64,000 nt of DNA from Marinobacter maritimus (GTDB lineage Bacteria; Pseudomonadota; Gammaproteobacteria; Pseudomonadales; Oleiphilaceae): the NCBI RefSeq assembly GCF_007671675.1, contig NZ_VCGW01000001.1:1178001-1242000 (forward strand), written 5' to 3'. A model generated the notes under the pieces. It made no database searches and was not told the origin of the DNA. It saw only the letters and a list, made by a program, of their open reading frames with translations. This document shows positions 16,785 to 31,470 of this stretch, piece by piece. Each line of letters begins with the position of its first letter. The first letter of the stretch is position 1. A program made the translations under genes and the position numbers.

Positions 16785-16903
16785 GGCAGGTATTCCAGAA
16801 AAAAGTTGCACGTAACCAAACGACAAGGACAGAGTAAGGGGATGGAGAGGGCAAGACTTGTCACATCCTGCGCAACCATGGATGATTCTTGCGGAGGCCC
16901 GCT

Positions 16904-17809
16904 ATGGATACCGACCCGATACCCACAAACACTTCACCGACGAAGCGCCACGATATCGTGGACACGCTCAAAGCCGCCGGCGTGGCGCCACAGAAACTGA
17001 TGGAACTGGATAAGGGGCGGGCGCTCGCACAGTGGCAGAATCGCAAAGGAGAAGTGCGTTATGAGCGGCCAAACCATCACGCCCTGAGCATCTACATCAA
17101 CGAGGGTGCCAAAACCAGACGGATGGTCAATGGGCAGGCCGTGAGCCAGGGGTTCCCCGGTGCCGTTTGTCTTTTTCCGGCAGGCAGCCACTCCACCTGG
17201 AAGATCGGCGGTCAGTTCGAATTCTTCCATTTCTACTTTAATGACCTCGACATAACCCAATGCGCTGAGCAAACCTGGGATTGCGAACCACACAACGTCG
17301 AGCTTGCCGAGCTCTACCATGCTGAAGACCCGGTACTGGCCCAGGCTGGGAAGTTGCTGGCGCTGAGCGATTGGCAGGCCCCTGGCCAAGCCATGGCAAT
17401 GGACCATCTGGCGCAGTGGCTGTTGTTGCAGGTGCTCAGCCGCCACTCCACGGTGCAAAAGACACCACCCGCTGTCACCGGCCAGCTCTCCATGCGTTAT
17501 CGCAGGTTGTTACAGGCCCGCATCCATCAGCAGCTGGACCAGCAGCTCACCCTCGCGGAGATGGCAGGCTGGGTAAACCTCAGCCCCTATCACTTCGCTC
17601 GCCTGTTCCGTGCCACCTTCGGCTGTGCGCCCTATCAATACGTCCAGGAACAGCGGCTGACCCGGGCCCGTGACCTGCTACGCAGGCCCGGGCATAAAAT
17701 CATCGCCGTCGCCCTGGCCTGCGGCTTCAATAATTCCAGCCAGTTCAGCCGGACGTTCAAGGCCCGGTTTGGGGTAACGCCGTCCGCCTATCGCGGCTTT
17801 GTCGAATAA
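16904..17809 (+). CDS. AraC-family transcriptional regulator
   Basis: 301 residues from the ATG at 16904 (GCGGAGG 6 nt upstream; a TTG 15 bp earlier is less likely). The N-terminal 190 residues are a cupin-like sensing domain without clear ligand motifs. The C-terminal 100 residues hold the double helix-turn-helix: LTLAEMAGWVNLSPYHFARL for the first and IIAVALACGFNNSSQFSRT for the second, then FKARFGVTPSAYR. It is divergent from the EamA transporter and is its likely regulator. Confidence 0.9.
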   Translation: MDTDPIPTNTSPTKRHDIVDTLKAAGVAPQKLMELDKGRALAQWQNRKGEVRYERPNHHALSIYINEGAKTRRMVNGQAVSQGFPGAVCLFPAGSHSTWKIGGQFEFFHFYFNDLDITQCAEQTWDCEPHNVELAELYHAEDPVLAQAGKLLALSDWQAPGQAMAMDHLAQWLLLQVLSRHSTVQKTPPAVTGQLSMRYRRLLQARIHQQLDQQLTLAEMAGWVNLSPYHFARLFRATFGCAPYQYVQEQRLTRARDLLRRPGHKIIAVALACGFNNSSQFSRTFKARFGVTPSAYRGFVE

Positions 17810-18340
17810 CTGGATGGACCGATTATCCACGAACAGTCTTGCTGGCCGCACCAGGCCTGACCACAGAACCGTCCCCTAGCCCGGATTTCTCATAGTACCT
17901 CGGCGAACTTCGCAAATGGCTACCAGTAACGCCAAGATCCCTTTTGTAAACATCCCTGTTTTAGTTGCACCTCTATTAGAGCCCTCCGCTGACGGTCGCA
18001 AAGCGAACATTCGGATCGACCACAAAGCGGACCTCGTGAGCGTTTGTGATGACATGCACATAGGTTCTTCCGGCGCAATAATAATGAAACTACATCGTTA
18101 AACCCTATGAACTGAATAACGGTCCGTTCTGCTGCGCTACGTACCTGTTTCAATTTAGCCCGCAGGCAAGTCCCCTGAACATGATTAAAAAGCGCAAAAA
18201 CAGGGCAGGTTGGGACATCCGTACAACTTGACCATTCTTCAACTACTCAATACACCAAACGTTTATTCTAATGTGCAACCGTCATTTTGTTGTGGTAAAG
18301 AGATGTAGTGAAGACTAAATGTGTAAGGACTGTCGCCATG
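17810..18340. other. Gene-free stretch with a degenerate repeat (copy D)
   Basis: No supportable gene in 530 bp. GGTCGCAAAGCGAACATTCGG at 17994-18014 matches the right arm of the dispersed hairpin repeats with one change, and ACAAAGCGGACC follows at 18022. A matching left arm is not preserved, so this copy is decayed. The promoter of the next operon must lie in the AT-rich part at about 18180-18310. Confidence 0.5.
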
Positions 18341-19870
18341 CGCTTCAATAGTTCCCGTGCCCCGCTTGCCTGTGCTTTCACATCAATTCTCCTGCTGCCC
18401 TCTGTTTCACAGGGGAGCAACGACGCTTTTGCCGGCCAGTGGCAGGCCGCCATCCTCGGCAAGAGCGGCACCAACAAGTACAACCTGCAGATTGACATCA
18501 GCGAAAGCAATGGCAAGCTCACCGGCACCACCCGGTATCTTGATCTGGGTTGCGGTGGCACTCTCACAGCCGTTCAGAGCAGCAGCGAGCAGGTGACCTT
18601 CAGGGAAACCCTGACCCGGGGCAAAAGCAAATGTGTGCAGGGTGCCGGTATCCGGCTGGTCCGCAAACAGGGTGGGCTGACTTATGAGTGGCTCTATCCC
18701 AATGGTAAAACCGGTTTACAGGCTACATTGGTGCCCGGCAACGGTGGCGCCGGATCGGCAGCGTCTTATGTGGCAGCCCCTGCCGCTAGTAGCAAGAGCA
18801 CTACTACTGCAACTGCAGCCAGCGGGAATTCTGCGGCTTCGGGTGCATCAGCAAATGCCACTATCAGTGATGCAGAGCTGGCTTTCACCGCTATAGACGA
18901 TATGGCCGCTCACCCGGAGGATCCGCAAAACCCCCTGGGTCTGGTAGGCGCTACAGACGAGGAAGTTTCCAGCCTGCCGCTGGAAGAAGCCGCCGAACTG
19001 ATCCAGTTTGCCCTGCCTCATGCCGAAGCGAATCTGCAGGAGCCCCGTTACCTGTTTGCCTTGGGGCGACTGGCATTGTTACAGGGGGATGAGGAATTTG
19101 CTGAAGAGTTGTTAACCAAAGCGGCCAACGCCGGTTCCGCGGCTGCAGAAGCTTACCTGGCGCACATTACTAATGACCTGCAACAGGCAACTACACACCT
19201 GCGTAACGCCATCAAAGGTGGCTTCACACCGGCCCGGGCCTGGCTGGCAAAGGTAGGAAATGCCGCGAAAGCCAATGCCATGGCTCAATCCGTTCCGACG
19301 CCGGGTTATGGCTCCGGCTATAACACGAATTATCAGTATCAACAGCAGCAGTATCAGACCCCGCCGGTAAAATTCGATCCGTCTGTTTATAACCGTCCGG
19401 ACCTAATCAATGCGTTTTATGAAGGCGATGTCTCTGGCCTGGGTAACGATTATCTGGCAAACCTGACTTACGTGTCTGCCATGCATAACTTTTTCAACGA
19501 AACGACCAGCCTGCTGTTTCTGGTGAACGATAAAAACATCATTACCGAAATTGACCCCAGCCTTTCCCATCAGATTGCCCGCAAAATCACAACGACGGAT
19601 AAAGGCATGAATGAAGCTATTGGTGTCGGAATGGAGTCTTTTTTTGGCCCCCTCATCGCCATTGGGCAAACCCGAAAGCGGGGCGGCAGCCTGAAGGAAG
19701 AAATGCACGCCATTAACCAGGCCATTATGGACAGCCCCCACGTGCGCCTCGAACTGGTCCGGGAAAAAGCCCTGCAGGATGCTAAGCGCCTGGCGCTTAC
19801 CTATGATCAAGATCCACAGGTTTTTCGCCGGGTCTACAGCGGCATGAAAAAGTTCGTCCGGGAGAGCTGA
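18341..19870 (+). CDS. Secreted protein with a two-cysteine beta domain and TPR/Sel1-like region; first gene of the barnase-barstar operon
   Basis: 509 residues from the ATG at 18341 (AAGGA 8 nt upstream). This start gives a good signal peptide cleaved near SVSQG-SND; a GTG at 18308 would spoil it. Residues about 30-130 form a beta-rich domain with LDLGCGGTLTAV and SKCVQGAGIRLV, which may be disulphide-linked. A low-complexity Ala/Ser/Thr linker follows (about 135-180). Next is a helical-repeat region of Sel1/TPR type (about 190-320; EPRYLFALGRLALLQGDEEF, AANAGSAAAEAYLAHI). A Tyr/Gln-rich linker leads to a C-terminal domain of 160 residues that I do not recognise. Only 1 bp separates it from the RNase toxin gene, so it is probably a partner of that toxin. 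Confidence 0.7.
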   Translation, partial: RFNSSRAPLACAFTSILLLPSVSQGSNDAFAGQWQAAILGKSGTNKYNLQIDISESNGKLTGTTRYLDLGCGGTLTAVQSSSEQVTFRETLTRGKSKCVQGAGIRLVRKQGGLTYEWLYPNGKTGLQATLVPGNGGAGSAASYVAAPAASSKSTTTATAASGNSAASGASANATISDAELAFTAIDDMAAHPEDPQNPLGLVGATDEEVSSLPLEEAAELIQFALPHAEANLQEPRYLFALGRLALLQGDEEFAEELLTKAANAGSAAAEAYLAHITNDLQQATTHLRNAIKGGFTPARAWLAKVGNAAKANAMAQSVPTPGYGSGYNTNYQYQQQQYQTPPVKFDPSVYNRPDLINAFYEGDVSGLGNDYLANLTYVSAMHNFFNETTSLLFLVNDKNIITEIDPSLSHQIARKITTTDKGMNEAIGVGMESFFGPLIAIGQTRKRGGSLKEEMHAINQAIMDSPHVRLELVREKALQDAKRLALTYDQDPQVFRRVYSGMKKFVRES

Positions 19871-19871
19871 T

Positions 19872-20516
19872 ATGCGCCTGGTGCTCTACACGCTGGTTGC
19901 CAGTCTGCTGTGGTTTTATACACCCACTGGTGTGGATTTTGTTTTTCAGGATTACTCGGCCCATGCCGCGGTAAAACGGCCACCGCCACCTCCGCCCAAG
20001 CCGAAGCCTAAAATCAAACGGACCGAACCCAAGGCTATAAGCAACCTCAGGCCCACCGCCAAGCGGAACCCGCTGAAAAACGAGGCCGTTAATAACAGGA
20101 GCCTGAAACCCAATTTCAGGCTCCCTAAAGGAAAGAAAGTTAACCTGAATCCCAGTTCCCTGAAGTCTTTCAAAGCCACGAAAGATGTCAGGAGCAGGTT
20201 ACTGAACAAGTACGGCACCAAACCCAAAGCGAAGATCCCACGAAAAGCCTACAATGTATTAAATCAGATCAAAACGCGCAATGGAGCGCCACCCAACGGC
20301 TATAAAGGTCAGGGAAAATTTAAAAACGACAGCAGAGGCGGCGGACAAATACTACCAAGAGCAGGACCCAACGGAAAAAAAATTACTTACAAAGAATATG
20401 ATGTGAATAAGTTCGTAAAAGGTCGCAACAGAGGCGCTGAGCGAATCGTTGTTGGCAGTAACGGGCGCGCTTACTACACTAACAACCATTACAAAACCTT
20501 CACGGAAATGAAATGA
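19872..20516 (+). CDS. Secreted barnase-type guanyl-specific ribonuclease toxin
   Basis: 214 residues. A hydrophobic N terminus (1-18, cleavage perhaps near SAHAA-VK at 33) is followed by a Pro/Lys-rich stretch with six consecutive prolines (37-42) and a basic linker to about 135. Residues 140-214 are a microbial RNase N1/T1 (barnase-like) domain: PPNGYKGQGKFKNDSRGGG, ITYKEYDVNKF, GRNRGAERIVVG and YYTNNHYKTF. The catalytic triad is intact: Glu175, Arg191, His206, corresponding to barnase Glu73, Arg87 and His102. The stop overlaps the barstar start (ATGA), as usual for toxin-immunity pairs. The long basic linker and secretion signal suggest delivery out of the producing cell or a role in the envelope; the route is not evident. 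Confidence 0.88.
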   Translation: MRLVLYTLVASLLWFYTPTGVDFVFQDYSAHAAVKRPPPPPPKPKPKIKRTEPKAISNLRPTAKRNPLKNEAVNNRSLKPNFRLPKGKKVNLNPSSLKSFKATKDVRSRLLNKYGTKPKAKIPRKAYNVLNQIKTRNGAPPNGYKGQGKFKNDSRGGGQILPRAGPNGKKITYKEYDVNKFVKGRNRGAERIVVGSNGRAYYTNNHYKTFTEMK

Positions 20517-20944
20517 TAGCTTCATCTTTGCTACAAACGCCCACCCCTCCCTGGATTATCCGCTCAGATCAATCCCTGCAAAATCTGTTGGATCAAATCA
20601 GGCATAATGTCAGCAATGCACACATTGTGGTGCTGGATGGCAGCAATATGATCAACTACAAAGGCCTGTATCGTGAATTTTCCGAAAAACTCGAATTTCC
20701 TGATTACTTCGGCCATAACCTGAACGCCTGGGTTGAATGCCTTACCGATCTGGACTGGCTCGACAAACACAACTATGTATTGATTATTACCGACAGCGGT
20801 CAGCTACTGTCTGAAAAACCGGATGAAAAAGACGCCCTTCTAGATGATCTGATGGAGGTATGTGAAGAGTGGAGCAAGCCGGTAAACCTTGGTGAAAGCT
20901 GGGACCGGGATGCCGTACCCTTCCATGTCATTCTGCTTGCCTGA
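20513..20944 (+). CDS. Barstar-family ribonuclease inhibitor (immunity protein)
   Basis: 143 residues with the barstar fold pattern: an N-terminal helix, then the strand HIVVLDGSNMINYKGLYREF, then EKLEFPDYFGHNLNAWVECL followed by TDLDWLDKHNYVLIITD. The F-P-x-Y-F-G-x-N segment is the most diagnostic. There is no signal peptide, so it is cytosolic, as expected for an inhibitor that protects the cell from leaked or incoming RNase. It overlaps the RNase gene by 4 bp. It is longer than B. amyloliquefaciens barstar (90 residues) because of N- and C-terminal extensions, which is usual in proteobacteria. Confidence 0.88.
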   Translation: MIASSLLQTPTPPWIIRSDQSLQNLLDQIRHNVSNAHIVVLDGSNMINYKGLYREFSEKLEFPDYFGHNLNAWVECLTDLDWLDKHNYVLIITDSGQLLSEKPDEKDALLDDLMEVCEEWSKPVNLGESWDRDAVPFHVILLA

Positions 20945-21118
20945 CCCCCAGGGTGAACAGCCTATTAAAGTCTGCCCCAACCTGTGTGATTCCGAAAAAA
21001 CATTACTGAGATTCCGGCGCAGACATCGCCTTGAACTGATTCAGCAATCTGAACTGGAAAATCTCCAGCCGGTGGTTTGGCTGGATGTGTCAGGCGTTTT
21101 TTGAAGCTTGAAATGGCG

Positions 21119-21679
21119 TTACTGGTTTTCCGTAGCGTACTTGGCACGCACCAGCAGAATCCGGTCGATGGCGTTTTCCAGAGCAACGACTTCGTTTTCC
21201 AGCTTTTCGATTTCAATCTCGTAACGCATCAGCTCTTCTCTGGCTTCGCGATCACTATTGAGGGTTGCCAGGCGGGCGTTTAAATCCGCTTCTTTCTGTT
21301 TCAGATCTTTGGCTTTGTTAATGGCCGCTGTCAGCTCCGCTTTCTTGGTTTCAATCTGCCGGTTGTATTCATCCAGCTTTTTCTGGGCGATCCGGGTTTT
21401 GACTTGCTGCTGGCTTGCCTGGGTATCCAGCCGGTTCAGTTCCCGTTGTTTCCTCCACAAACGCTGGTCCAGCTGGTGGGCTTTTTGCCGCAGGTTTTCC
21501 AGTTCCTGCTGGCGCGCTTCCAGGTGTTGATTCAACCGCGAATCGTCCGACACCTGCATGCCAATAATATCGCCCCAAGATACTTTGGTGGGGTCGGTCT
21601 CGTTGGTGGTGGCGCAGCCTGCCAGGCCAGCCAGCAGGCTGACCATGGCGGCCTGCTTCAGTTTGGTTTTAAATCGCAT
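21119..21679 (-). CDS. Outer-membrane lipoprotein with long coiled coil (last gene of the MotA/VWA operon)
   Basis: 186 residues. The signal peptide ends in the lipobox LAGC with Cys22; Ala at +2 directs it to the outer membrane. From about residue 48 to 180 it is almost wholly heptad-rich coiled coil (QHLEARQQELENLRQKAHQL onwards, then EIEIEKLENEVVALENAI). That is enough for a rod of roughly 15-20 nm if continuous, close to the width of the periplasm. It is 12 bp after the glycine-zipper lipoprotein and ends the operon that starts at 24902. I do not recognise a named family. It may connect the outer membrane to the inner-membrane motor-like complex. Confidence 0.7.
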   Translation of the reverse strand: MRFKTKLKQAAMVSLLAGLAGCATTNETDPTKVSWGDIIGMQVSDDSRLNQHLEARQQELENLRQKAHQLDQRLWRKQRELNRLDTQASQQQVKTRIAQKKLDEYNRQIETKKAELTAAINKAKDLKQKEADLNARLATLNSDREAREELMRYEIEIEKLENEVVALENAIDRILLVRAKYATENQ

Positions 21680-21691
21680 GTGATTCTCTCG

Positions 21692-22387
21692 TTAGCTCGA
21701 AGTAATCGCCATCAGGGTTTCTTTCTGGGCCATCAGCTGGGGCTGAATACCGTTAAGCGTATTTAACGATCCCACCAGTTCATCGCGACGTTGCAGCAGG
21801 TTTTTATGGATGTTGGCCAAGTCAGGATCGTTGGGCATTGTTTTCAGGTGGCCTTCCACTTCGGTGATTTGCTGTTCTAACAAACGCATCTGCACCTGGG
21901 TTTCGGTGCTTAGTTCTTCGTTAACCGCCAGGTTTTTATTCAGGTCATCCAGCATGATTTTGGCACGCTTGATATTCGCCTGTTGCTGGGTGTTCTGGCG
22001 GGTCATTTGTGCGATCTGCTGGGAACGATAACTCATTTGTTTTTGAATACTGGCGGTTTGCCGTCCGATGTGTTTGATTTTTTGATCGGTTTCGGCAATG
22101 TCCGATTCAATGCGATTGTGCTTTTCTGCGTACTGGCTGCGCCATTCACCCACCTGGTAACCGGCTGCTCCGCCCAATGCGCCACCCACCACAGCACCAA
22201 TGGCGCCTTTTTCAAGGCGGTCACGATCATCATCACCGGACACGGCGCCCACTACGCCACCGATCACGGCGCCCCAAGTGGCACCTTTTTTAGTGTCTGC
22301 GTCATCGAATGCGTTAGAGGAACATCCGGACAGAGCTACTGCCACGGCAAAGATAACGCCTGTTTTAGATATTTTGAGCGTTTTCAT
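21692..22387 (-). CDS. Glycine-zipper plus coiled-coil outer-membrane lipoprotein
   Basis: 231 residues. The lipobox LSGC has Cys22 and Ser at +2, which favours the outer membrane. Residues about 33-80 hold a glycine-zipper region (GATWGAVIGGVVGAVSG, then GAIGAVVGGALGGAAGYQVG), as in membrane-associating lipoproteins. Residues 90-225 are coiled coil (ESDIAETDQKIKHIGRQTAS onwards). Domain order therefore mirrors the neighbouring coiled-coil lipoprotein with an added membrane-insertion element. Fourth gene of the operon, 62 bp after the bitopic protein gene. Function unknown. Confidence 0.7.
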   Translation of the reverse strand: MKTLKISKTGVIFAVAVALSGCSSNAFDDADTKKGATWGAVIGGVVGAVSGDDDRDRLEKGAIGAVVGGALGGAAGYQVGEWRSQYAEKHNRIESDIAETDQKIKHIGRQTASIQKQMSYRSQQIAQMTRQNTQQQANIKRAKIMLDDLNKNLAVNEELSTETQVQMRLLEQQITEVEGHLKTMPNDPDLANIHKNLLQRRDELVGSLNTLNGIQPQLMAQKETLMAITSS

Positions 22388-22449
22388 AGTGCACCCCTTT
22401 CTTCCAGTGTTTGCGCTTGCCTACCCTTGCTTGCGCTGTATCTATCAAC

Positions 22450-23142
22450 CTACAAACGATCATCAATCATATTTTTAAAGTATTCTTTCGGCGCCATGAT
22501 GGGAGGCACCGAATTAATGGTTTCCATGCCCATGATGAGCATGTCTGCCGCTGTTTGCTTTTGCTCGCTCTGCAGAGTGGTGATGGTGTTCGTTAGCTCC
22601 TGTTCCACCAGCACGCCGTCGTTCATGTTATGTGTGTACAGGGATTCCAGGGTATCGGCCATGCGATCCCGCAGATCCACCAGTTCTTTCTTTTTGTGAT
22701 TCAAAATCACTTCAATGGCATTGATGGAAACACTGCTCCCGGTTTTTTGAGCTTCAATCAGGCTGATAGTGTTCATTTCGATTTCCTGACTGGTGAGATG
22801 ATACAGGGTCGACAGCTTGATATAGTTTTTGATATCGAGTTCCAGTTCCTCCGGATTGACGGGTGTTGCTTCCGGGGTTGATTCGGTTGTTACCTCGGCA
22901 ACCACGCCTTCATCAACCGGGGTTTGTGATTGCACATAGGCGTAACCACCGCCGCCCAAGGCACCAATCAACGACACCACTATAGCCACTGCCGTCAGGG
23001 GACTGGTTTTTTTAGCCGGCCCTGGTTTGGTTTTTGACGGCTCTGGTTCGGCCGGTTGCTCCTGAGTATCCTGTTCCTTGCCCGGTTCCGGTTGTTGCTT
23101 TTTCTCCGGAGCGGACCGGTTTGGATTGTTAATGATTGGCAT
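22450..23142 (-). CDS. Bitopic inner-membrane protein with disordered cytosolic tail and helical periplasmic domain
   Basis: 230 residues. Residues 1-46 are Pro/Glu/Lys-rich and probably disordered in the cytosol. One membrane helix follows (about 49-70, PLTAVAIVVSLIGALGGGGY). A periplasmic linker rich in Glu/Thr/Pro leads into a helical domain (about 97-230). The topology is inferred from the basic cytosolic flank (PAKKTS). No known domain was recognised. It lies 22 bp after the VWA protein gene, so the products are likely to act together in the inner membrane. A TolA/TonB-like linker role is possible but there is no TonB-type C-terminal signature. Confidence 0.65.
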   Translation of the reverse strand: MPIINNPNRSAPEKKQQPEPGKEQDTQEQPAEPEPSKTKPGPAKKTSPLTAVAIVVSLIGALGGGGYAYVQSQTPVDEGVVAEVTTESTPEATPVNPEELELDIKNYIKLSTLYHLTSQEIEMNTISLIEAQKTGSSVSINAIEVILNHKKKELVDLRDRMADTLESLYTHNMNDGVLVEQELTNTITTLQSEQKQTAADMLIMGMETINSVPPIMAPKEYFKNMIDDRL

Positions 23143-23164
23143 AGTGTCAACGAATCCTGATGCG

Positions 23165-24112
23165 TTAGTCTTCTTTTACTATAGCGGTTAGCAGGTAGGC
23201 CAGCATTTTACCGGGGTTCTGGGTAAAGTTTTGAGGCTGATCTGCAGCCACGGCTACCTGCCTAAAAAAGTTGTAACTGGCCTGATCTTTTCCACTGGAA
23301 CGGTTATTCACGGGCTCGCCGGAATACAGGCTGATAATGCTGCGCTTGTCGCGGTCGCCGACCCAGCGGCTGATTTGCTGCAGTAACTGGCGTTCTGCCT
23401 GACGCTCGTAATGTTCTACCCGGGTCCAGTCGCCATTGGGGGATTCATAGGGGCCTACATCCCCCAGCAGCATAATCGTTTGCGAGCCTTTGAACTGGCT
23501 TGCGGATTGTTCTGACATATCCAGCGCGGTAAGGAAGGCACGATCCACCGGTGCCAGGCCGCCGCGCACCAGTTTGTCGATAAAGCTATTGATCATGGCC
23601 AGTGAGCGGCCACCGTCTTTGTGTTCGGGGAATATCTGCTGGGCGGGGAACACCTGCAGGCCGTTGGGTACTTTATCGGATATAGCATAGGCCACCACGC
23701 CAATACGGAATTCCGGTGCCACTTTGGGAAGCACTTTGGATATGGTGCGGATGGTTTCTTCCAGGTGGCCCAGAGCATCGCTCATGCTGCCGGATACATC
23801 CACCACCACGATCAGCTCCAATCCCTGGGACTGGATAGCGGATTCAATATCGGCGAGTGCTTTGGTAACTTCTTCCAGTTGTTCGCGGGCTTTTTCCTTT
23901 TCGAATTCGGATTCCTGCATGGCTTGCTGAGCTTCGGCCATTTCGGCTTTGGCCTGTTCCAGCTCCTGCTTGATGGCGTCTACGTTTTCAGTGGGTTTAA
24001 TCAAAGACAGGAAAATAATCATCAGCAGCACAAAGATCGCCATGGTGGCAAAGATCAGGTCACTGAATGATTCATAAAAACTGGTAAAGCGGGAGGGCGA
24101 ATCAAGCTTCAT
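23165..24112 (-). CDS. MotB/ExbD-like bitopic protein with coiled coil and VWA domain
   Basis: 315 residues. The single membrane helix near the N terminus reads F-S-D-L-I-F-A-T-M-A-I-F-V-L-L (residues 16-30), the pattern of MotB, ExbD, TolR and ZorB proton-channel stators, with Asp18 in the position of the proton-carrying Asp. A coiled coil follows (about 44-95). Residues 98-310 are a von Willebrand factor A domain with an intact MIDAS start, D-V-S-G-S (Asp105, Ser107, Ser109), and a later L-L-G-D-V-G. In MotB and ZorB this place holds an OmpA-type peptidoglycan-binding domain, so the VWA domain is a substitution. It overlaps the MotA-like gene by 11 bp, which fits a two-part channel. Confidence 0.85.
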   Translation of the reverse strand: MKLDSPSRFTSFYESFSDLIFATMAIFVLLMIIFLSLIKPTENVDAIKQELEQAKAEMAEAQQAMQESEFEKEKAREQLEEVTKALADIESAIQSQGLELIVVVDVSGSMSDALGHLEETIRTISKVLPKVAPEFRIGVVAYAISDKVPNGLQVFPAQQIFPEHKDGGRSLAMINSFIDKLVRGGLAPVDRAFLTALDMSEQSASQFKGSQTIMLLGDVGPYESPNGDWTRVEHYERQAERQLLQQISRWVGDRDKRSIISLYSGEPVNNRSSGKDQASYNFFRQVAVAADQPQNFTQNPGKMLAYLLTAIVKED

Positions 24113-24902
24113 GGGAGCGCTCCCGCTCCAGCAGTCGTTGATGTTCGCGATCCTTGGCCAGCTGGCGCATATAGGGCAGTACGTGCACTTCGGTCAGCTC
24201 CGCCAGGTGGGCGGTATAACGCATGATGGAGGCATCAATCACGCTGGTGAGTACTCTCAGTATCACACCACCAAAGATGGCACCTGCTAAGGTGGTGTAA
24301 AATGCCGTACCCAGGCCCGCCAGAGGGCCGGAGTCGGGATCGGCAATTTTATCCAGCAGGCCATCACCACCAGGCTGAGTAGCAAGGGCGGCAGACAGGC
24401 CGTCCATCATCATGATTAAACCCAATATGGTACCGATCAAACCCAGGGTTATCAGGATGCTGGCAAAGAGTTCCACTACGCGGTTTTTGGCCATCAGGCG
24501 GGAGTGCAGCACTTCGATCAGATTGTCCTGATACACATCAGGTTGTGACAGGGAGATGGTGTACAGGTTGTCGATATGAGAGCGGAATACGCTGACGGGG
24601 GCGCGCTCCAGAAAGGTGTCAAAATCGTCCACTTCTTCCAAAATGGCCACTTGTTGGGACGCCAGCTTGGTTTCTTTATCCAGAAAGCGGGCGTCGAAAA
24701 ACCCCTTGATGATCAAACCAATACCCAACCCGCCAATGGCAATGTACATGCCCCATTCGATGGCGGCCTTGCTGTTGGCAATCATGGCTATGCTGAGCAC
24801 ACCGAATACGAGCACCATGACAATGGCCCAGGCGATCCATTCTGTCAGGCCTGAGAGTTTTTCGAACTGAGAAGCAAAGCTTTCCGGATGATGGGCGGAC
24901 AT
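24102..24902 (-). CDS. MotA/TolQ/ExbB-family proton-channel protein
   Basis: 266 residues from the ATG at 24902; an upstream TTG at 24929 is less likely. There are two N-terminal helices (about 22-42 and 50-68), a cytosolic segment of about 70 residues, then the conserved MotA/ExbB pair: ILITLGLIGTILGLIMMM (149-166) and GLGTAFYTTLAGAIFGG (196-212), with the usual Thr residues lining the channel. A charged C-terminal helix (H-Q-R-L-L-E-R-E-R) ends the protein. It is the first gene of a five-gene operon, immediately before the MotB-like VWA protein. Together they should form a proton-driven rotary or conformational motor. Which process it drives is not known. Confidence 0.88.
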   Translation of the reverse strand: MSAHHPESFASQFEKLSGLTEWIAWAIVMVLVFGVLSIAMIANSKAAIEWGMYIAIGGLGIGLIIKGFFDARFLDKETKLASQQVAILEEVDDFDTFLERAPVSVFRSHIDNLYTISLSQPDVYQDNLIEVLHSRLMAKNRVVELFASILITLGLIGTILGLIMMMDGLSAALATQPGGDGLLDKIADPDSGPLAGLGTAFYTTLAGAIFGGVILRVLTSVIDASIMRYTAHLAELTEVHVLPYMRQLAKDREHQRLLERERSHEA

Positions 24903-25946
24903 AGGAGCACGATTCCCTGCGCAAACCAACGAAAGTATACATCTGAGGCAGATCAGTGATGGTACCGCCGGCCTATTGCTGATTTCTTAAGCAATAATCT
25001 AAAGCGATTTATAGAATAGGGAGCTGGCGCTTCTGCAAAGACCTCAGGGGATCAACGCGATCACGCAGGCCCCTCCGTTCAGCGCAATCAGCACGACAAC
25101 AATGACGCTCTTCACGTTCTGTATATCCTGCCATAACAATGACCTCCTGTGATTTTTAATTGAGGCTGGCGACAGCCACGATAGCGAAAACTTCGGCTGC
25201 ATATTCTGAGCCACACCCGAAAGAGTGCCGCGAAATCAAAAAGGAAATGATCTATTGGCAACGCAGATGTAAAGTATCTCGACACGAGGAGGGGGTCCAA
25301 TCGCCCGAACGAGCCTGGCAAGTAGCGCCCAGGTAGCGCATGCACGGTGACACAGTGAGCCTCGGCGAGTTAGCGCCAGCGCCCCCAGCCCCTTGCATGC
25401 GGGTCCGCAAAGGCCATTTCCCCCAAACGCTAAAAAAAGTCGGCCGATTAGCTCCGCCTGCCCCAATGATGGTTTTTGTTCCTGCGCCAGCAGTCCGCAA
25501 TCCGTGCGGATACGGAGTCTCTGAACTGCACCGCTCCTCATTGATTTTCGGGTTCAAGCCTGTACCCTATTTCTCCCATTACGATGGACATCTTGGCTAA
25601 TATACCGCCTACTGACTTCTGCTCAATCATCGACAGGGTTACCCCTGTCGGCGCTATCGGTGCCCATCTCGTTCGCTCGCAACCGACCGATGGAGCCAAT
25701 CTCGGCACGGCAAAAAGGTCTGCTTTCCAATGGAAGCATGCATCTTTAAAGCGGACTTACCAATGTTCGCTTTTGTTTAATGGCGTCCCCTACTAACAAG
25801 GCCTGTTGCTCGACTCCACTCTTTCGGTTCCAGCGAGACTATTTCGAACTCCGAGTTGGACGACGAATTTAGCACTTTGTGTGGTCGTCTACTGTTTGGT
25901 GGACGACCATACGAAGTACAAAAAGAGACCGACACCATCTATACAT
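24903..25946. other. 1-kb intergenic stretch; possible tiny ORFs and repeat copy E
   Basis: No firm gene. On the minus strand an excellent ribosome site (AGGAGGTC, 25141-25148) precedes ATG at 25134, but the resulting 41-codon frame (to 25009) has unlikely composition. The overlapping frame 25115-25044 from a GTG encodes a 23-residue hydrophobic peptide, KSVIVVVLIALNGGACVIAL. A perfect hairpin (CGACAGGG at 25631-25638 with CCCTGTCG at 25643-25650) and another (TGGTCGTC at 25882-25889 with GACGACCA at 25902-25909) are present; the latter could end the LysR transcript. Long open frames at 25250-25560 on both strands look like chance in GC-rich sequence. Confidence 0.4.
25762..25780. repeat. Dispersed hairpin repeat, copy E (left-arm type)
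   Basis: AATGTTCGCTTTTGTTTAA matches the left arm of copies B and C (AATGTCCGCTTTTGTTTAG) with two changes. TTTAAAGCGGACTT at 25746-25759 precedes it, so the order of the arms is inverted relative to copies B and C, or two fragments are adjacent. About 7.7 kb from copy D, beyond the toxin and motor block. Confidence 0.5.
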
Positions 25947-26831
25947 TTACATGTTTTTCCAGCGCTGACTGAAAAAATCCAGAAACACCTGAATACGAGC
26001 CGACAACGTCGTGTTCCGGTAATAGACAGCATTAACCAACTCCCGGTGATTCGGGCGGACTAGGTAGTCATCCAGAAGCTCCACAAGGTCGCCTTTTTCG
26101 AGATCATTGGCAATCATGAAGCGGGACAGGTAGGCAATTCCATTGCCCTGCAGGCAAAGCTGGCGCACGGCTTCACCACTGCTGGCTCGAATTGCCGGTC
26201 TCACCTTCATTCCTTCTCCCAGATGCCAGATGTTCAGCGATTCAGGGGCGGTAAAACCAATGATGTCGTGTTCCTGGAGATCGGCAGGCGTATCACAACC
26301 ACCTTTACGCTCCAGATAATCCGGTGATGCCACCACTGACAGCGGAGAACGACCGACTGCCCGCGCGTGGAGGGTCGAGTCATCCAGAGCGCCGATCCGT
26401 ATGGCGATGTCGATTCGACGTTCCAGGAGGTCAACGATCGCGTCACTGGCCGTCAGTTCGAGCTCAATGTCCGGATAGGCAGCCCTGAATTCCCGAACGT
26501 GTGGAACGATCTGATGTAACAGGAACGGATTTGCAGCATCCACCCTTAAGCGCCCGGCTGGCCGTTGCTTGCGAATGGCTAGCTGCTCCTCAGCATCGTC
26601 CAGCGCAGCCAAACCACCTCGCACCTTCTCTACAAACAAGCGCCCTTCCTCTGTCAGCCCCACTTTACGGGTGGTCCGATTCAAAAGCGTGGTGTTCAGG
26701 GATTGTTCTAACCGGGTAACCGCACGGGAGACCCGGGTGACAGATACCTCCAGTTGCTCCGCCGCACCACTGAAGCTGCCACTGTCCACCACAGAGAGCA
26801 GAAAAAAGAGATCGTCCGACCGACTTTTCAT
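25947..26831 (-). CDS. LysR-family transcriptional regulator
   Basis: 294 residues from the ATG at 26831 (GGA 8 nt upstream); ATG at 26837 is an alternative. The N-terminal helix-turn-helix contains GAAEQLEVSVTRVSRAVTRLEQSL, and the effector domain covers residues about 90-290. It belongs to the LysR subgroup in which the start reads D-D-L-F-F-L-L-S-V-V, like two other regulators in this window. It is divergent from an MFS exporter with 100 bp between the starts and is its likely regulator. Confidence 0.9.
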   Translation of the reverse strand: MKSRSDDLFFLLSVVDSGSFSGAAEQLEVSVTRVSRAVTRLEQSLNTTLLNRTTRKVGLTEEGRLFVEKVRGGLAALDDAEEQLAIRKQRPAGRLRVDAANPFLLHQIVPHVREFRAAYPDIELELTASDAIVDLLERRIDIAIRIGALDDSTLHARAVGRSPLSVVASPDYLERKGGCDTPADLQEHDIIGFTAPESLNIWHLGEGMKVRPAIRASSGEAVRQLCLQGNGIAYLSRFMIANDLEKGDLVELLDDYLVRPNHRELVNAVYYRNTTLSARIQVFLDFFSQRWKNM

Positions 26832-26931
26832 TTTCATTATCCGCAAAAGTATTTTTCAAAAAGCACTGTTTATCGCAAAAGTATGAAAGACCACACTAGG
26901 CAACGTCAATCAACTCCAATGGAGAACCGTT

Positions 26932-28104
26932 ATGCCTATTGCACTATTCGCGCTGACATTAAGCGCCTTTGCAATCGGGACCACCGAATTCGTGATTGTT
27001 GGTCTGGTCCCAACCATCGCCCAGGATCTGGGCGTTACCCTACCTTCGGCTGGCCTCCTCGTCAGCTTGTATGCTCTGGGTGTCGCCGTTGGCGCCCCTG
27101 TACTTACCGCATTAACGGGTCGCTGGAATCGCAAATGGGTTCTGCTGTCGCTGATGAGTCTGTTCATCATTGGCAATGTGCTTGCCTGGATGGCCCCGAA
27201 TTACGCTTCGCTGATGACTGCTCGAATCCTCACCGGGCTCGCTCACGGTGTGTTCTTCTCGATCGGTTCAACGATTGCCACCAGCCTGGTTTCGAAAGAC
27301 AAAGAGGCCAGCGCCATAGCCATCATGTTTACCGGCCTCACGGTTGCACTGGTGACGGGCGTTCCACTGGGCACGTTTATCGGACAAACCTTCGGCTGGC
27401 GCGCTACGTTCCTGACGGTCGCTGCCCTGGGTACCATTGCACTCATTGGCAGCGCGCTACTGGTGCCAAAAAACCTGAAGAAATCAGCGCCAGCTACGCT
27501 TCGCCAACAGCTTGAAGTTATCACCCATCCGCGACTGCTACTGGTGTACGCCATGACCGCGGTCGGCTATGGCGGTACCTTCACGGCCTTCACCTATCTG
27601 ACACCCATTTTGGAGGATGTCAGCGGATTTGCGCCTGGCATGGTCAGTCTGCTGCTTCTGGTTTATGGCATCTCTGTAGCCACTGGCAACATCTGGGGCG
27701 GCAAGCTGGCTGATCGCCTCGGGCCGACCTCGGCGTTGTACATCATTTTCGCTGGCCTGGCCGCCATCCTCTTTGTGCTCACCTTCACGGCCTACAATCC
27801 AATTGCAGCAGTCATCACCTTGCTTGTTTGGGGCGCCTTTGCCTTCGGAAACGTGCCTGGCTTGCAGGTCTACGTGGTGCAACTCGCCGAGCGGTATACG
27901 CCACATTCTGTTGACGTTGCATCCGGATTAAACATCGCTGCATTCAACATCGGTATTGCCGGCGGCGCCTGGCTCGGTGGGCACGTGGTCGAGGATATGG
28001 GGCTGATGAACACCCCCTGGATTGGTGGAGTAATTGTACTGAGCGCCCTACTCCTGACCCGGATTTCTTCAACACTGGATAACCGCAAACCGGCTATGGC
28101 CTGA
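26932..28104 (+). CDS. MFS transporter, DHA1 family (AraJ/YdhP-like exporter)
   Basis: 390 residues, twelve predicted membrane helices. The start ALFALTLSAFAIGTTEFVIVG has the G-T-T-E-F motif of DHA1 sugar/drug exporters of the AraJ / YdhP group. The loop 2-3 motif A reads GAPVLTALTGRWNRKWVL, and motif C-like Gly/Pro sequence occurs in helix 5 (GLTVALVTGVPLGTFIG). The ATG at 26932 has GGAG 7 nt upstream. It is divergent from a LysR gene. A strong hairpin follows 9 bp after the stop. Substrate unknown: arabinose-type sugars, purine nucleosides and drugs are exported by relatives. Confidence 0.9.
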   Translation: MPIALFALTLSAFAIGTTEFVIVGLVPTIAQDLGVTLPSAGLLVSLYALGVAVGAPVLTALTGRWNRKWVLLSLMSLFIIGNVLAWMAPNYASLMTARILTGLAHGVFFSIGSTIATSLVSKDKEASAIAIMFTGLTVALVTGVPLGTFIGQTFGWRATFLTVAALGTIALIGSALLVPKNLKKSAPATLRQQLEVITHPRLLLVYAMTAVGYGGTFTAFTYLTPILEDVSGFAPGMVSLLLLVYGISVATGNIWGGKLADRLGPTSALYIIFAGLAAILFVLTFTAYNPIAAVITLLVWGAFAFGNVPGLQVYVVQLAERYTPHSVDVASGLNIAAFNIGIAGGAWLGGHVVEDMGLMNTPWIGGVIVLSALLLTRISSTLDNRKPAMA

Positions 28105-28113
28105 TCCATCAGA

Positions 28114-28133
28114 GGCCTCCCGAATGGGAGGCC
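28114..28133 (+). terminator. Terminator-like hairpin after the MFS gene
   Basis: GGCCTCCC (28114-28121) pairs perfectly with GGGAGGCC (28126-28133) around a GAAT tetraloop, 9 bp after the MFS stop. There is no U-run, so efficiency is uncertain. Confidence 0.6.
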
Positions 28134-28366
28134 CAGTGAGATTCGTGATGTTCCTCTATATGACCCGTCGTTCGGCGACGCCGCCCAGGTGTTCGATCCA
28201 CTGGTGTATCTGGGTTTCCTATCCGGAGTAACCCGAAACATTCTGCTTGGCACGGCGGCTGTTGTTCTCCCGCTGCGCAGCCCTTGGATCGTGCGCAAAT
28301 CCGCGGCCTAGGTTCAGGCACTGAGCCAGGACCGCTTGATGCTCGGTGTGGCGAGCTCCGAAAGGA
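28123..28366 (+). pseudogene. Fragment of an LLM-class flavin-dependent oxidoreductase
   Basis: In the frame starting at 28123, about 60 codons match the middle of luciferase-like monooxygenases: VPLYDPSFGDAAQVFDPLVY, then GFLSGVTRNILLGTAAVVLP and LRSPWIVRKSAA. A TAG stop follows at about 28309. The frame continues after it in the same family pattern (VQALSQDRLMLGVASSER), where functional relatives read L-Q-A-L-S-x-G-R-L-L-L-G-V-A-S-G. No start codon, N terminus or C terminus remains. This is a clear decayed fragment. The remaining bases to 28620 hold no gene that I can support, only the promoter region of egtB. Confidence 0.75.
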
Positions 28367-28620
28367 TGCCCTCCACTACTCACCAAAGGAATTATGGCAA
28401 GTCTCAAGTCGAACATGCCTCATTCCGTTCGGCGTGCAGCCCTTTTACCTCAGAAACTATCGGTCAGGCAACCGCTCAGAAACCCCTATCGCCGCGCTCT
28501 AACGAGTGAAAGACTTAACTAACCTGTAATGGAAAATAGTCCCGTAACGCGTATTGTTTGTGTTTCAGGTGATTGAACCGCTAGTCGCGCGCGCCGCCCC
28601 CTACAAGGAGCTTAACGGCC

Positions 28621-29928
28621 ATGCTAGAAGAAGCGCCTCTTGATAATAGTTTCAGATTTCGTCAGGTTAGAAACCAATCCGAGTTGTTGTGCGAGTCCCT
28701 CAGCCCGGAGGATTGCAATCTTCAAGCAATCCCTGATACCAGCCCATTGAAATGGCATGTGGCCCATACCACGTGGTTTTTCGAAACGTTTATTCTGGTT
28801 CCATTTCTAAGTCACTACCGGCTTTTTGATGAGCAATTCCAGGTTCTCTTCAATTCGTATTACAACGGTATTGGCAAGCAGCATCCCCGACCGAAGCGTC
28901 ACTTATTATCTCGCCCCAGCCTTGATGAAGTTATGTCTTATCGGCGTCATGTTGATCAGGCCATGGTTAATCTGCTTGACCGCCCACCTGAAGCCGATCA
29001 AAAAGAGATCAACGCGCGTCTGGTACTGGGGCTGAACCACGAGCAGCAGCATCAGGAACTCATGCTGACCGATCTCAAATATAATTTCGCTTGCAACCCT
29101 CTCCTACCGGCTTATGTCGACGGTGGCGTAGCTGTGAATCAGAACTCATTCAGGCGCGATAGCGGCTTTGAATTTTATAAAGGTGGGCTGATTGAAGTCG
29201 GACAAGAGGATGACGATCCATTTGGTTTTGATAACGAGCAGCCGCGCCATAAGGTTTGGCTTGAACCCTTTGCCATAGGCCGGAACTTGGTGACCAATGG
29301 CGAATTTCGCCAGTTCATGGAAGATGGCGGCTACGAGCGCCCCGAACTCTGGCTATCCGACGGTTGGAGCACTGTCCAGCAGGAAGGATGGAGACACCCT
29401 TTGTATTGGGATCTCTCATCCGACGAAGGGCGCATATTTACGTTGCACGGTGCAAAGCCGATAGAAGACGATGTTCCTGTATGTCATCTGAGCTACTTTG
29501 AGGCTGATGCCTTCGCGCGTTGGACAGGAGCCCGTTTACCTACTGAGGAGGAGTGGGAGCATGCCTGCATGCAGGCGAATACCGAAATCGCGGATGGTAG
29601 GGGCAGATTACACGGCCAGATCGACCGAACGCGTCTTCATCCAGATAATCTCCCCCCACGTCAAAAAGGACTGAGCGATATGTTTGGTCAGGTATGGCAA
29701 TGGACGTCCTCGCCGTATCGCGCTTACCCAGGTTACCGCACTGCGCCGGGGGCGCTCGGTGAGTACAATGGCAAGTTCATGTGCAGCCAATTTGTCCTTC
29801 GGGGCAGCTCCTGCGCCACACCCAAGGGTCACAGCCGTTCAAGTTACCGCAATTTTTTCTATCCGCCGGATCGTTGGCAGTTCACCGGATTGCGCCTCGC
29901 CAGAGATGCCATGCCGGGGACAGAGTAA
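28621..29928 (+). CDS. egtB: Ergothioneine biosynthesis protein EgtB (iron-dependent sulfoxide synthase)
   Basis: 435 residues, normal for EgtB. The N-terminal DinB-type helical bundle carries the likely iron ligands His49 (LKWHVAHTTWFFE) and His140/His144 (LNHEQQHQELMLTDLK). The C-terminal formylglycine-generating-enzyme-like domain spans about residues 180-430, with GRNLVTNGEFRQFM, RWTGARLPTEEEWEHA and FVLRGSSCATP. EgtB joins a thiol donor (gamma-glutamylcysteine or cysteine) to hercynine with oxygen to form the sulfoxide. AAGGAG lies 10 nt before the ATG. The egtD gene follows 70 bp later, so the pair makes and uses hercynine. EgtC and the lyase EgtE are not in the window. Confidence 0.92.
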   Translation: MLEEAPLDNSFRFRQVRNQSELLCESLSPEDCNLQAIPDTSPLKWHVAHTTWFFETFILVPFLSHYRLFDEQFQVLFNSYYNGIGKQHPRPKRHLLSRPSLDEVMSYRRHVDQAMVNLLDRPPEADQKEINARLVLGLNHEQQHQELMLTDLKYNFACNPLLPAYVDGGVAVNQNSFRRDSGFEFYKGGLIEVGQEDDDPFGFDNEQPRHKVWLEPFAIGRNLVTNGEFRQFMEDGGYERPELWLSDGWSTVQQEGWRHPLYWDLSSDEGRIFTLHGAKPIEDDVPVCHLSYFEADAFARWTGARLPTEEEWEHACMQANTEIADGRGRLHGQIDRTRLHPDNLPPRQKGLSDMFGQVWQWTSSPYRAYPGYRTAPGALGEYNGKFMCSQFVLRGSSCATPKGHSRSSYRNFFYPPDRWQFTGLRLARDAMPGTE

Positions 29929-29998
29929 CCTTTGTTCGTATACCCATTGGCAGAAACACCAGTGAACATCATTGCATTGCCCTACGCAGGAGCAAACC

Positions 29999-30997
29999 AT
30001 GGATTCTCTAGTCAAGCCTGTCTCGAATAGCGACCTTCAACCTCGACTTACGAACCTCCGGGTCCATCATTTGGACGATGCTCTGGATGATGACCTCGCA
30101 TTGATTCGAAAAGGCTTGTCTGATGCAAAGCCTTGGCTGCACCCCAAGTTTTTTTATGATTCTCGGGGCTCCAGGCTCTTCGATGCGATAACCGAAACGC
30201 CCGAGTATTATCCTACTCGTACCGAAGCATCGATATTTTCACGCTATACCCGTGAAATGATGGATCAGATGAGTGACAGAGCGGTGCTGGTAGAGCCGGG
30301 TAGTGGTAATTGTGTTAAAGCCTTAAAGCTCCTCAATGATGAGCGACTCAATCATTACGCTCCTATCGAGATTTCGAGGTCGTTTCTGGTGGATTGTTGT
30401 ACACGCCTGGCGGCTAACAATCCGGCGTTGCTAGTGGATGCTGTGTGTGGCGATTTTACCCGTTGTCAGTCGTTACCAGGATCAGTGCCGGCTGATGGCC
30501 GTGTGGTCTTTTTCCCAGGTTCCACCATCGGTAACTTTGATCCCGATCATGCGCAAACCTTACTTGAAAACTTCCACGAGCTGGCCGACGGTGGCTATCT
30601 GCTGATCGGGGCCGATCTCCCGAAAGATCGCGCCACCTTGGAGCGTGCCTATAACGATAGTCAGGGCATTACGGCTCAGTTCAATCTCAATATGCTGTCG
30701 CACCTCAGTAGCTGTCATGAATGTAAGTTCACGCCGGAACATTTCGAGCATCTTGCGTTTTATAACGCCGAACTCAAGCGTATTGAAATGCATCTCGTCT
30801 GCAAAACAGGCACCGCCATTCAGGTTCAAAATGACATTTTTACGTTAACGCCCGGCCAGAGCATCCATACTGAAAGCTCTTATAAGTACGACTCGGCTGA
30901 TTTACTTAGAATGGCTCGCTCTGCGGGATTTGAGCCGGTTGGACAGTGGACCGATTCACGCGACTGGTTTGCAGTTTATCTGTTGCGTGCTGTCTGA
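29999..30997 (+). CDS. egtD: L-histidine N-alpha-methyltransferase EgtD
   Basis: 332 residues from the ATG at 29999 (GGAG upstream; the frame extends to 29972 but without a ribosome site). It matches EgtD in length and motifs: PKFFYDSRGSRLFDAITETP near the N terminus, the SAM site LVEPGSGNCVKALKLL, and VVFFPGSTIGNFDPDHA, which is highly characteristic. The protein makes hercynine (trimethylhistidine) from histidine with three SAM, the first step of ergothioneine synthesis. Cotranscribed with egtB. Cytosolic. Confidence 0.93.
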   Translation: MDSLVKPVSNSDLQPRLTNLRVHHLDDALDDDLALIRKGLSDAKPWLHPKFFYDSRGSRLFDAITETPEYYPTRTEASIFSRYTREMMDQMSDRAVLVEPGSGNCVKALKLLNDERLNHYAPIEISRSFLVDCCTRLAANNPALLVDAVCGDFTRCQSLPGSVPADGRVVFFPGSTIGNFDPDHAQTLLENFHELADGGYLLIGADLPKDRATLERAYNDSQGITAQFNLNMLSHLSSCHECKFTPEHFEHLAFYNAELKRIEMHLVCKTGTAIQVQNDIFTLTPGQSIHTESSYKYDSADLLRMARSAGFEPVGQWTDSRDWFAVYLLRAV

Positions 30998-31044
30998 GAA
31001 TATTGGCAATCGGCAATCCATTTAAGTGCCAGATGCCTAAAGGA

Positions 31045-31390
31045 TTATCGGGAGTGAATCACCCGTCCTGTCTGATCCAGGGCTTTGAGGGTATTTGGTA
31101 CACCAAGCCAGCCGGTATCGGCGTATATATCATCCTCGATAATGGCAAGGTCGTGCTCCTCGGCCAGCTCAAGTAACCGCCTGCGGGCCTCTGGTGGCAT
31201 GGTTGCACCACTTGGCGTTGCGAACGCTGGTGATACCACGCAGGCACGTACGTCCCAACACTTGAGAACGTCTGCAAGCGCAGTACTTCTCGTCATGATG
31301 TCCCGAGGAAACCAGCCCGCTCACTGCTCACGATCAGTAGGTCGTTCCACCGTTAGAACACTCCGTTGCAAACCTTCAACTACCTATCCC
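31045..31390 (-). pseudogene. Fragment of a PLP-dependent aminotransferase domain (MocR-like)
   Basis: An 84-codon open stretch (31045-31296) matches the centre of fold-type I aminotransferase domains found in MocR/PdxR regulators: ACVVSPAFATPSGATMPPEA, RRRLLELAEEHDLAIIEDDI, then YADTGW and LKALDQTGRVIHS. The conserved sequence stops just before the catalytic-lysine motif (usually S-F-S-K), and a TGA lies at the N-terminal side at about 31339. A weaker match continues to about 31390. Neither the helix-turn-helix nor the lysine is left, so the gene is dead. It fills most of the 470-bp gap between egtD and the next pirin. Confidence 0.7.
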
Positions 31391-31470
31391 TGAATACTTC
31401 AGCTAGGTTTATACAAGTTCCTGCATACGTCGCAGTTTCCCGACCTGGGCCTAATTAACGGAGAGTGATG

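Follow-up and report, generated by a model that had tools for sequence, protein, structure and literature searches.

What does a stator-type membrane motor work on when its periplasmic part is a VWA domain? A gene pair of Marinobacter maritimus raises this question. The pair lies in a 64,000-nt stretch of contig NZ_VCGW01000001.1, which we call the window; gene coordinates given without a locus label are window positions, and the loci of relatives carry labels such as L067. As a member of the published TPH-vWA family the motor is ordinary. It is unusual for its conserved link to genes for predicted envelope rods and for polymorphic toxins. There is a fair chance that these genes together encode a new delivery system.

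The motor genes overlap by 11 bases:

24102-24902, minus strand, MotA/TolQ/ExbB-type channel subunit, 266 aa from the ATG, PF01618
23165-24112, minus strand, stator-VWA protein, 315 aa, made up of stator helix (Asp18), helical stalk and VWA domain

An earlier note on this DNA had described a MotA-type gene overlapping the gene of a bitopic stator protein, a stator pattern around Asp18 and the motif DVSGS of a metal-ion-dependent adhesion site (MIDAS). Both open reading frames (ORFs) and both motifs are present. The channel subunit matches PF01618 with E 1e-6 (29 bits against a Pfam cut-off of 22.9). The landmarks of the stator-VWA protein are Asp18 in the membrane helix, Asp105 and Ser109 in DVSGS, which starts at residue 105, and the loop-3 residue Asp218.

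Pfam VWA models match the C-terminal domain below cut-off (PF13519, 22.3 versus 27 bits), and the match to MotB_plug is weak (E 0.17). Ten relatives went into an AlphaFold2 model (mean pLDDT 78.1, with the first 15 residues below 50), which has a helix at residues 9-38, a stalk helix at 44-95 and then a domain of alternating strands and helices. A Foldseek search of solved structures with this model brings up VWA domains, 219 matches lying at E<=0.001 and the best at E 3.6e-8. Hence the VWA identity holds despite the low Pfam scores. The 25 Pfam families covered, of 26 with a match at E<=1, do not include OmpA, and by inspection the pore helix lacks the SHLS motif. Neither a tolR, an exbD nor a motB partner is seen by inspection among the ORFs of at least 80 aa at 16000-32000, eight of which were run against Pfam.

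Sequence searches with the VWA protein find few relatives. Against 97 related genomes it hits its own and a single weak place (E 6e-4). Of 390 genomes from the order, 10 have a match; one of them is its own, and none of the rest is stronger than E 7.7e-10. MotA alone matches in 57 of 369 genomes of the class (E<=1e-5, own included). With MotA alone as query we fetched 29 relatives' loci, and a VWA-type ORF adjoins MotA in 28 of them: within about 55 bases in 27, and 252 bases off in L040. The remaining locus, L041, has no VWA match beside MotA.

In a tree of 44 MotA sequences the window's sequence and six others form a monophyletic group, clade 2 (support 0.998), and 28 others form clade 1 (support 0.865). 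L066 was left out of the tree because by inspection it is a near-copy of L067. L028 falls inside L057, so the clade-1 sets omit its rows; both L031 and L032 are counted although they are nearly identical. A MotA paralogue from the window's own genome, L010, falls with clade 2 at the end of a long branch. Therefore the two clades cannot be called exclusive sisters.

For clade 2 we also ran a pattern-based scan of 84,980 species genomes, derived from the clade-2 MotA alignment. Since it rested on two short peptide patterns, which matched 93 stretches, the number of clade-2 relatives is a lower bound. The scan gave at least six loci. L066 and L067 come from two near-identical Lamellibrachia symbionts, L068 from a Phycisphaerales metagenome-assembled genome (MAG), L069 from a gammaproteobacterial MAG, L070 from a Pseudomonadales MAG (apparently the same contig as L022) and L071 from an Oceanococcus MAG. 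A further locus, L057, was found through the MotA search of the 369 class genomes. Judged by sequence, the window's motor belongs to a seldom-found sub-clade.

The residues expected of a motor are conserved in both clades. All 11 clade-2 rows of the alignment have Asp18, and so do 26 of 27 clade-1 rows. The pattern D-x-[ST]-x-S and the loop-3 Asp are each kept in all 10 clade-2 VWA rows and all 27 clade-1 rows; the eleventh clade-2 row, L022, has no VWA domain. In MotA, the equivalents of T152, T158 and T204 are found in 28 of 28 clade-1 and 7 of 7 clade-2 rows, and that of T203 in 27 of 28 and 7 of 7. For the metal dependence proposed in the earlier note, these kept residues contrast with a threonine that a MIDAS usually has in loop 2; this threonine seems absent from the clade-2 rows, where the alignment is uncertain. 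The earlier note had asked whether Asp18 and the MIDAS residue Asp105 are invariant in homologues. For Asp105 this is so in the VWA rows aligned. For Asp18 it is so in clade 2, and in clade 1 one row departs; the refutation named in the note, an Asp18 not conserved among homologues, did not occur. In that row, L036:2203-2988 (also L060:7345-8130), the Asp reads Ala, and the close relatives L040 and L054 keep it.

Because Asp18 and the MotA threonines are conserved, the C-terminal domain has the VWA fold and the gene adjoins MotA, the predicted dimer subunit of a stator-type motor is a supported reading of the stator-VWA protein. In it the VWA domain would stand in place of an OmpA-like domain, as the earlier note proposed. 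Some clade-1 pairs (L059, L062, L063, L064) lie near mpl-like genes, some also near ubiX-like and kinase-like genes (names by inspection). Such neighbours in several families hint at old vertical inheritance of the clade-1 pairs.

The stator-VWA architecture itself is already known. The part of a 2025 paper covered here describes vWA proteins with a pore helix and a conserved Asp, tightly linked to tolQ-like genes without tolR or exbD, and proposes these TPH-vWA proteins as the motor's dimer, their function being given there as unknown (PMC12204202, Mol Biol Evol 2025). Hence the core idea of the earlier note had been published. The same pages report AF3 models of 5:2 complexes for the paper's own family members. 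Like that family, the window has a tolQ/MotA-like gene adjoining a bitopic vWA protein, a pore helix with a conserved Asp and without SHLS, and no tolR or exbD. In the family vWA genes come predominantly in heterologous pairs, which is not stated as required there (PMC12204202), whereas the window carries one VWA gene. Two tandem VWA genes are seen by inspection in L057, L069 and L071. With MotAB and ZorAB stators the window pair shares a channel subunit and an Asp-bearing helix, but the stator protein carries an OmpA-type domain there and a VWA domain here.

What the motor keeps company with is less ordinary. Behind the stator-VWA gene, on the same strand, stand three genes that we call the cassette:

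22450-23142, minus strand, bitopic protein, with a charged N-terminus, one membrane helix and a helical periplasmic part (topology by inspection)
21692-22387, minus strand, glycine-zipper lipoprotein, with a long helical, probably coiled-coil, part, PF13441 (E 3.6e-8) and the lipobox pattern LSGC
21119-21679, minus strand, coiled-coil lipoprotein, with the lipobox pattern LAGC

The cassette accompanies the motor in six of the seven loci that reach far enough (the window, L057, L067, L068, L069 and L071). L022 is without it, and the contig of L066 ends within it. The bitopic protein is present in all six cassette loci and in BLASTP matches L067 (E 2.5e-18) and L069 (E 2.7e-7). The glycine-zipper lipoprotein matches L067 (E 4.9e-20) and L069 (E 5.6e-11), and the coiled-coil lipoprotein L067 (E 5.0e-31) and L068 (E 1.2e-9). 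These pairwise E-values, and those of the TPR protein below, refer to a set of 27 proteins. Profile matches to rows used in building the profiles are so by construction; the coiled-coil protein of L071 is an independent match (7.5e-27). A middle membrane protein of L022, suspected to be a homologue of the window's, was unsupported by profile.

A profile search of eight clade-1 loci found cassette proteins at none of them. Therefore the partnership with lipoproteins is not general to the family. Of the earlier proposal that lipoprotein rods are the motor's partners, the linkage stands for clade 2 and falls for the wider family. It appears to be the company of the cassette and the toxins, and not the architecture of the motor, that is new. 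Section 8 of PMC12204202, in the text covered here, names no lipoproteins or toxins beside TPH-vWA genes, and the words "toxin" and "barnase" are absent from the paper's main text. VWA is unmentioned in the covered part of PMC12505986.

Two side observations concern the glycine-zipper proteins. That of L067 (L067:10607-11671) also holds a peptidoglycan-binding domain (PF01471 E 3.1e-13), which is a possible wall anchor of the machine. The lipobox pattern, a crude one, was not found in this protein nor in some others. The window's glycine-zipper lipoprotein matches YiaD and type VI TagQ models below threshold (40.4 of 175 and 37.3 of 300 bits).

Beyond the cassette lies a linked module of three genes at 18308-20944, which the earlier note had overlooked and whose middle protein looks like a toxin:

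18308-19870, plus strand, tetratricopeptide repeat (TPR)/SEL1-like protein, exported (by inspection), with a conserved C-terminal domain
19872-20516, plus strand, putative secreted toxin, with a signal peptide (by inspection), a Pro/Lys-rich constant region at about 33-117 and a barnase-type RNase at about 116-213
20513-20944, plus strand, barstar-type immunity protein, PF01337 (E 3.4e-24)

The TPR protein links three lineages. It is 51% identical over 332 aa to that of L067 (E 1.4e-104) and 36% over 324 aa to that of L068 (E 9.6e-55); in the alignment its first ~140 aa (window:18308-18740) are absent from both. In all three loci the TPR gene is followed directly by a gene for a signal-peptide protein (signal peptides by inspection). 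In L067 and L068 it stands behind the motor cassette and shares its strand. Of 398 phylum genomes, the TPR protein has a full-length match in its own only, and eight others match its middle (repeat) part only. These eight (L073-L080), whose neighbours look unrelated by inspection, were rejected as relatives. The AlphaFold model of the TPR protein is poor (mean pLDDT 43.2). A TPR gene is reported beside a sister TolA-like vWA family in the pages of PMC12204202 covered here. L057, L069 and L071 carry a SEL1-like protein different from the window's TPR protein (L057:7318-8595, L069:6078-7880 and L071:6606-7970). The short tails at their ends resemble one another (VID or IID) and may be a docking signal.

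The window toxin ends in a barnase relative (PF00545 E 1.7e-12). Searched against the PDB, this C-terminal part finds binase and barnase (best E 6.4e-4), and E175, R191 and H206 align to identical residues. We take these three to be the catalytic residues. The whole toxin finds nothing in the PDB at 1e-3. The start of the barstar gene overlaps the toxin stop by 4 bases. In L067 an unassigned ORF overlaps the toxin gene likewise by 4 bases and is a putative immunity gene.

A comparison of the two toxins separates a constant from a variable part. Residues 33-120 of the window toxin align to 33-115 of the L067 toxin with a score of 111 (shuffles 43 +/- 7; 0 of 2000 reach the score). The C-terminal parts are unrelated (score 30, shuffles 32 +/- 6). 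Between these two loci, the toxin end has been exchanged.

The L067 toxin has no useful match in the PDB, Pfam or NCBIfam. Its end (L067:13870-14274) matches in 5 of 321 genomes of the class, and in three of the five it closes a long open frame (739, 1256 and 4789 aa). It stands behind PT-HINT (PF07591 E 1.1e-16) in L081 (51% identity, E 5.8e-23) and in a protein with DUF637 (E 3.2e-15) in L082, and for this reason we read it as a mobile toxin-type end. A further match is to two short records that bear no annotation and are filed under Listeria phages (39% identity, E 5e-11).

From their sequences, the secreted proteins of the window and L067 look like polymorphic toxins with similar front parts and unrelated ends. 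Polymorphic toxin systems likewise have a constant N-terminal region, an exchangeable C-terminal toxin and an immunity gene directly behind, according to the part of a survey covered here (PMC3482391). The likeness lies in the barnase-barstar pair of the window, in the PT-HINT-linked end of L067 and in the exchange behind a constant region between the two. The words MotA, TolQ, ExbB and vWA are absent from the 300,000 of 357,715 characters of that survey that were covered. In the titles and abstract openings found by searching the open-licence literature, preprints being outside this scope, no motor-toxin link of such a kind is described.

An RNase linked to a motor is also what a Zorya-like anti-phage defence would offer: an envelope motor would sense the phage and free a nuclease that kills the infected cell. 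MotA and the stator N-terminus are indeed weakly similar to ZorA and ZorB models (best E 3.8e-5 and 1.3e-4), and large ORFs and an ATPase of defence-like appearance precede the L068 locus (L068:78-6288, by inspection). But the stator protein is without an OmpA domain, and the NCBIfam Zorya models score far below cut-off (ZorA 12.9 of 100 bits, ZorB1 15.3 of 400 bits). The five proteins given to PADLOC, a run that did not extend to the other neighbours, include no other Zorya gene, and by inspection the nuclease bears an export signal. We consider such a defence improbable.

The output head of these motors appears to be exchangeable, since in one case, L022, a similar stator helix carries a fibrinogen-like part instead of a VWA domain. 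There (L022:10310-11179, the same place as L014 and apparently also L070) the predicted stator shares 69% identity with that of the window across 39 aa, and the C-terminal part has a partial Fibrinogen_C match (PF00147 E 6.7e-9, 55 residues). Such heads would suit a machine for surface adhesion or gliding in which VWA and fibrinogen-like parts bind ligands and the toxins are incidental, and gliding is suggested for a sister vWA family in the part of PMC12204202 covered here. Yet on the topology read from sequence the heads are periplasmic, no large surface adhesin is recognised in the cassette, and the linkage to toxins would go unexplained. We give this explanation little credence. L026:4545-13018, L024 and L025 show a third architecture, in which VWA is joined to a stator-like helix (MSAVDLFASAMGAF or similar); by inspection, ORFs nearby are PP2C-like and kinase-like or FHA-like. 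In L026 the same run includes a MotA-like gene (HMM E 1.1e-15); the HMM detects no such gene in the 6 kb of L024 or the 12 kb of L025.

To explain the company of motor, rods and toxins, we propose a delivery machine. Because the cassette and swappable secreted toxins neighbour the motor in two lineages, we suggest that the motor helps to deliver the toxins. MotA and the stator-VWA protein would form a proton-driven inner-membrane motor of the TPH-vWA kind, presumably a 5:2 assembly. The VWA head, on its periplasmic helical stalk, would pull on or turn against coiled-coil rods, which the glycine-zipper protein and the coiled-coil lipoprotein would form, anchored in the outer membrane. The bitopic protein may be the inner-membrane adaptor. 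From the helix rise per residue, the 52-residue stalk helix comes to about 8 nm by simple geometry, and the rod helices could span much of the periplasm. A contact between VWA and rods is thus plausible. Where the toxin module is present, the periplasmic TPR protein would hold or guide the Sec-exported toxin, and the strokes of the motor would push it across the outer membrane, or release it from there, in the direction of bacteria nearby. The toxin's constant N-terminal part would serve as its address, and the exchangeable C-terminal part would be matched by the cytoplasmic immunity protein. Of this picture, the analysis itself establishes which genes are present, the VWA fold, the conservation of motor residues, the homology of the cassette and the exchange of the toxin end between two loci; motor activity, the contacts and toxin delivery are what the proposal adds.

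By analogy, GldLM and PorLM of type IX secretion also combine a proton motor, lipoproteins and export across the outer membrane. A MotAB-like motor, SiiAB, works with a type I secretion system (PMC12204202, in the part covered). SiiAB resembles the proposed system in linking such a motor to protein secretion. It differs in its giant adhesin substrate and its type I genes, of which none were noticed in the window.

Several observations weigh against delivery. The cassette loci L057, L069 and L071 show no recognisable toxin by inspection and have tandem VWA genes instead. The toxin module of the window lies on the opposite strand, convergent to the motor genes, and so motor and module are not one operon there. 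No outer-membrane channel gene is recognised in the loci. The module is found in three lineages only and looks toxin-like in two, and two of the lineages come from symbiont or MAG assemblies. The secreted protein of L068 has neither a recognised toxin domain nor a recognised immunity gene, and its N-terminus has no significant similarity to that of the window (145 of 2000 shuffles reach the score) or of L067 (1432 of 2000). Searches of plasmids and 185 genomes with the L068 end were empty, and had no positive control. Finally, the putative immunity gene of L067, by eye a suspected homologue of the genes beside L081-L085, is unsupported as their relative (hhalign probability 7.7).

The motor and lipoproteins could instead be an envelope-maintenance or force-transducing machine with a Tol-Pal-like role. 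The toxin-immunity pair would then be a passenger of a variable region and leave the cell by another exit. The eight clade-1 pairs without a cassette and the three cassette loci without a visible toxin both fit this explanation, as does the statement that simple barnase-barstar pairs are widespread (PMC3482391, in the part covered). The region of the window is also variable. The VWA protein is unmatched in 60 of 60 congeners (E<=0.001), and the two genes flanking the region match 8 and 13 of 61 genus genomes (E<=1e-60, own included). These two genes were used to look for a clean empty site in congeners, but their own variability ended the attempt. Searches of viral contigs and plasmids gave no relatives of the VWA, MotA and TPR proteins, except for one partial match to the extra N-terminal part of the TPR protein, a weak one to an Antarctobacter plasmid protein (first ~140 residues, E 7e-4). 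In the window, promoter-like and terminator-like sites are not clearly above shuffles, Rfam gives no match at gathering score, and there is no tRNA. A mere passenger fits less well with a TPR protein that is homologous in three lineages and has no full-length relative in 397 other phylum genomes, or with a constant toxin region common to the window and L067 while the ends differ. We regard envelope maintenance as unlikely, though a stronger rival than defence or adhesion.

We put the chances close to even that this is an envelope machine, run by a proton motor, for the export or delivery of toxins that Sec has exported, the delivery being our inference. The fuller proposal, a new Gram-negative delivery system in which the MotA-VWA motor works outer-membrane rods to deliver TPR-guided, exchangeable Sec-exported toxins, is more tentative, and we hold it as a possibility that may well fail.

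Should the delivery reading prove false, the conserved cassette would still point to likely partners for the VWA head, namely the putative adaptor and the coiled-coil rods of the outer membrane. If it is true, toxin delivery would be the first function for TPH-vWA motors, which were published in 2025 without one. It would add a secretion route and link this motor class to bacterial warfare powered by the proton gradient.
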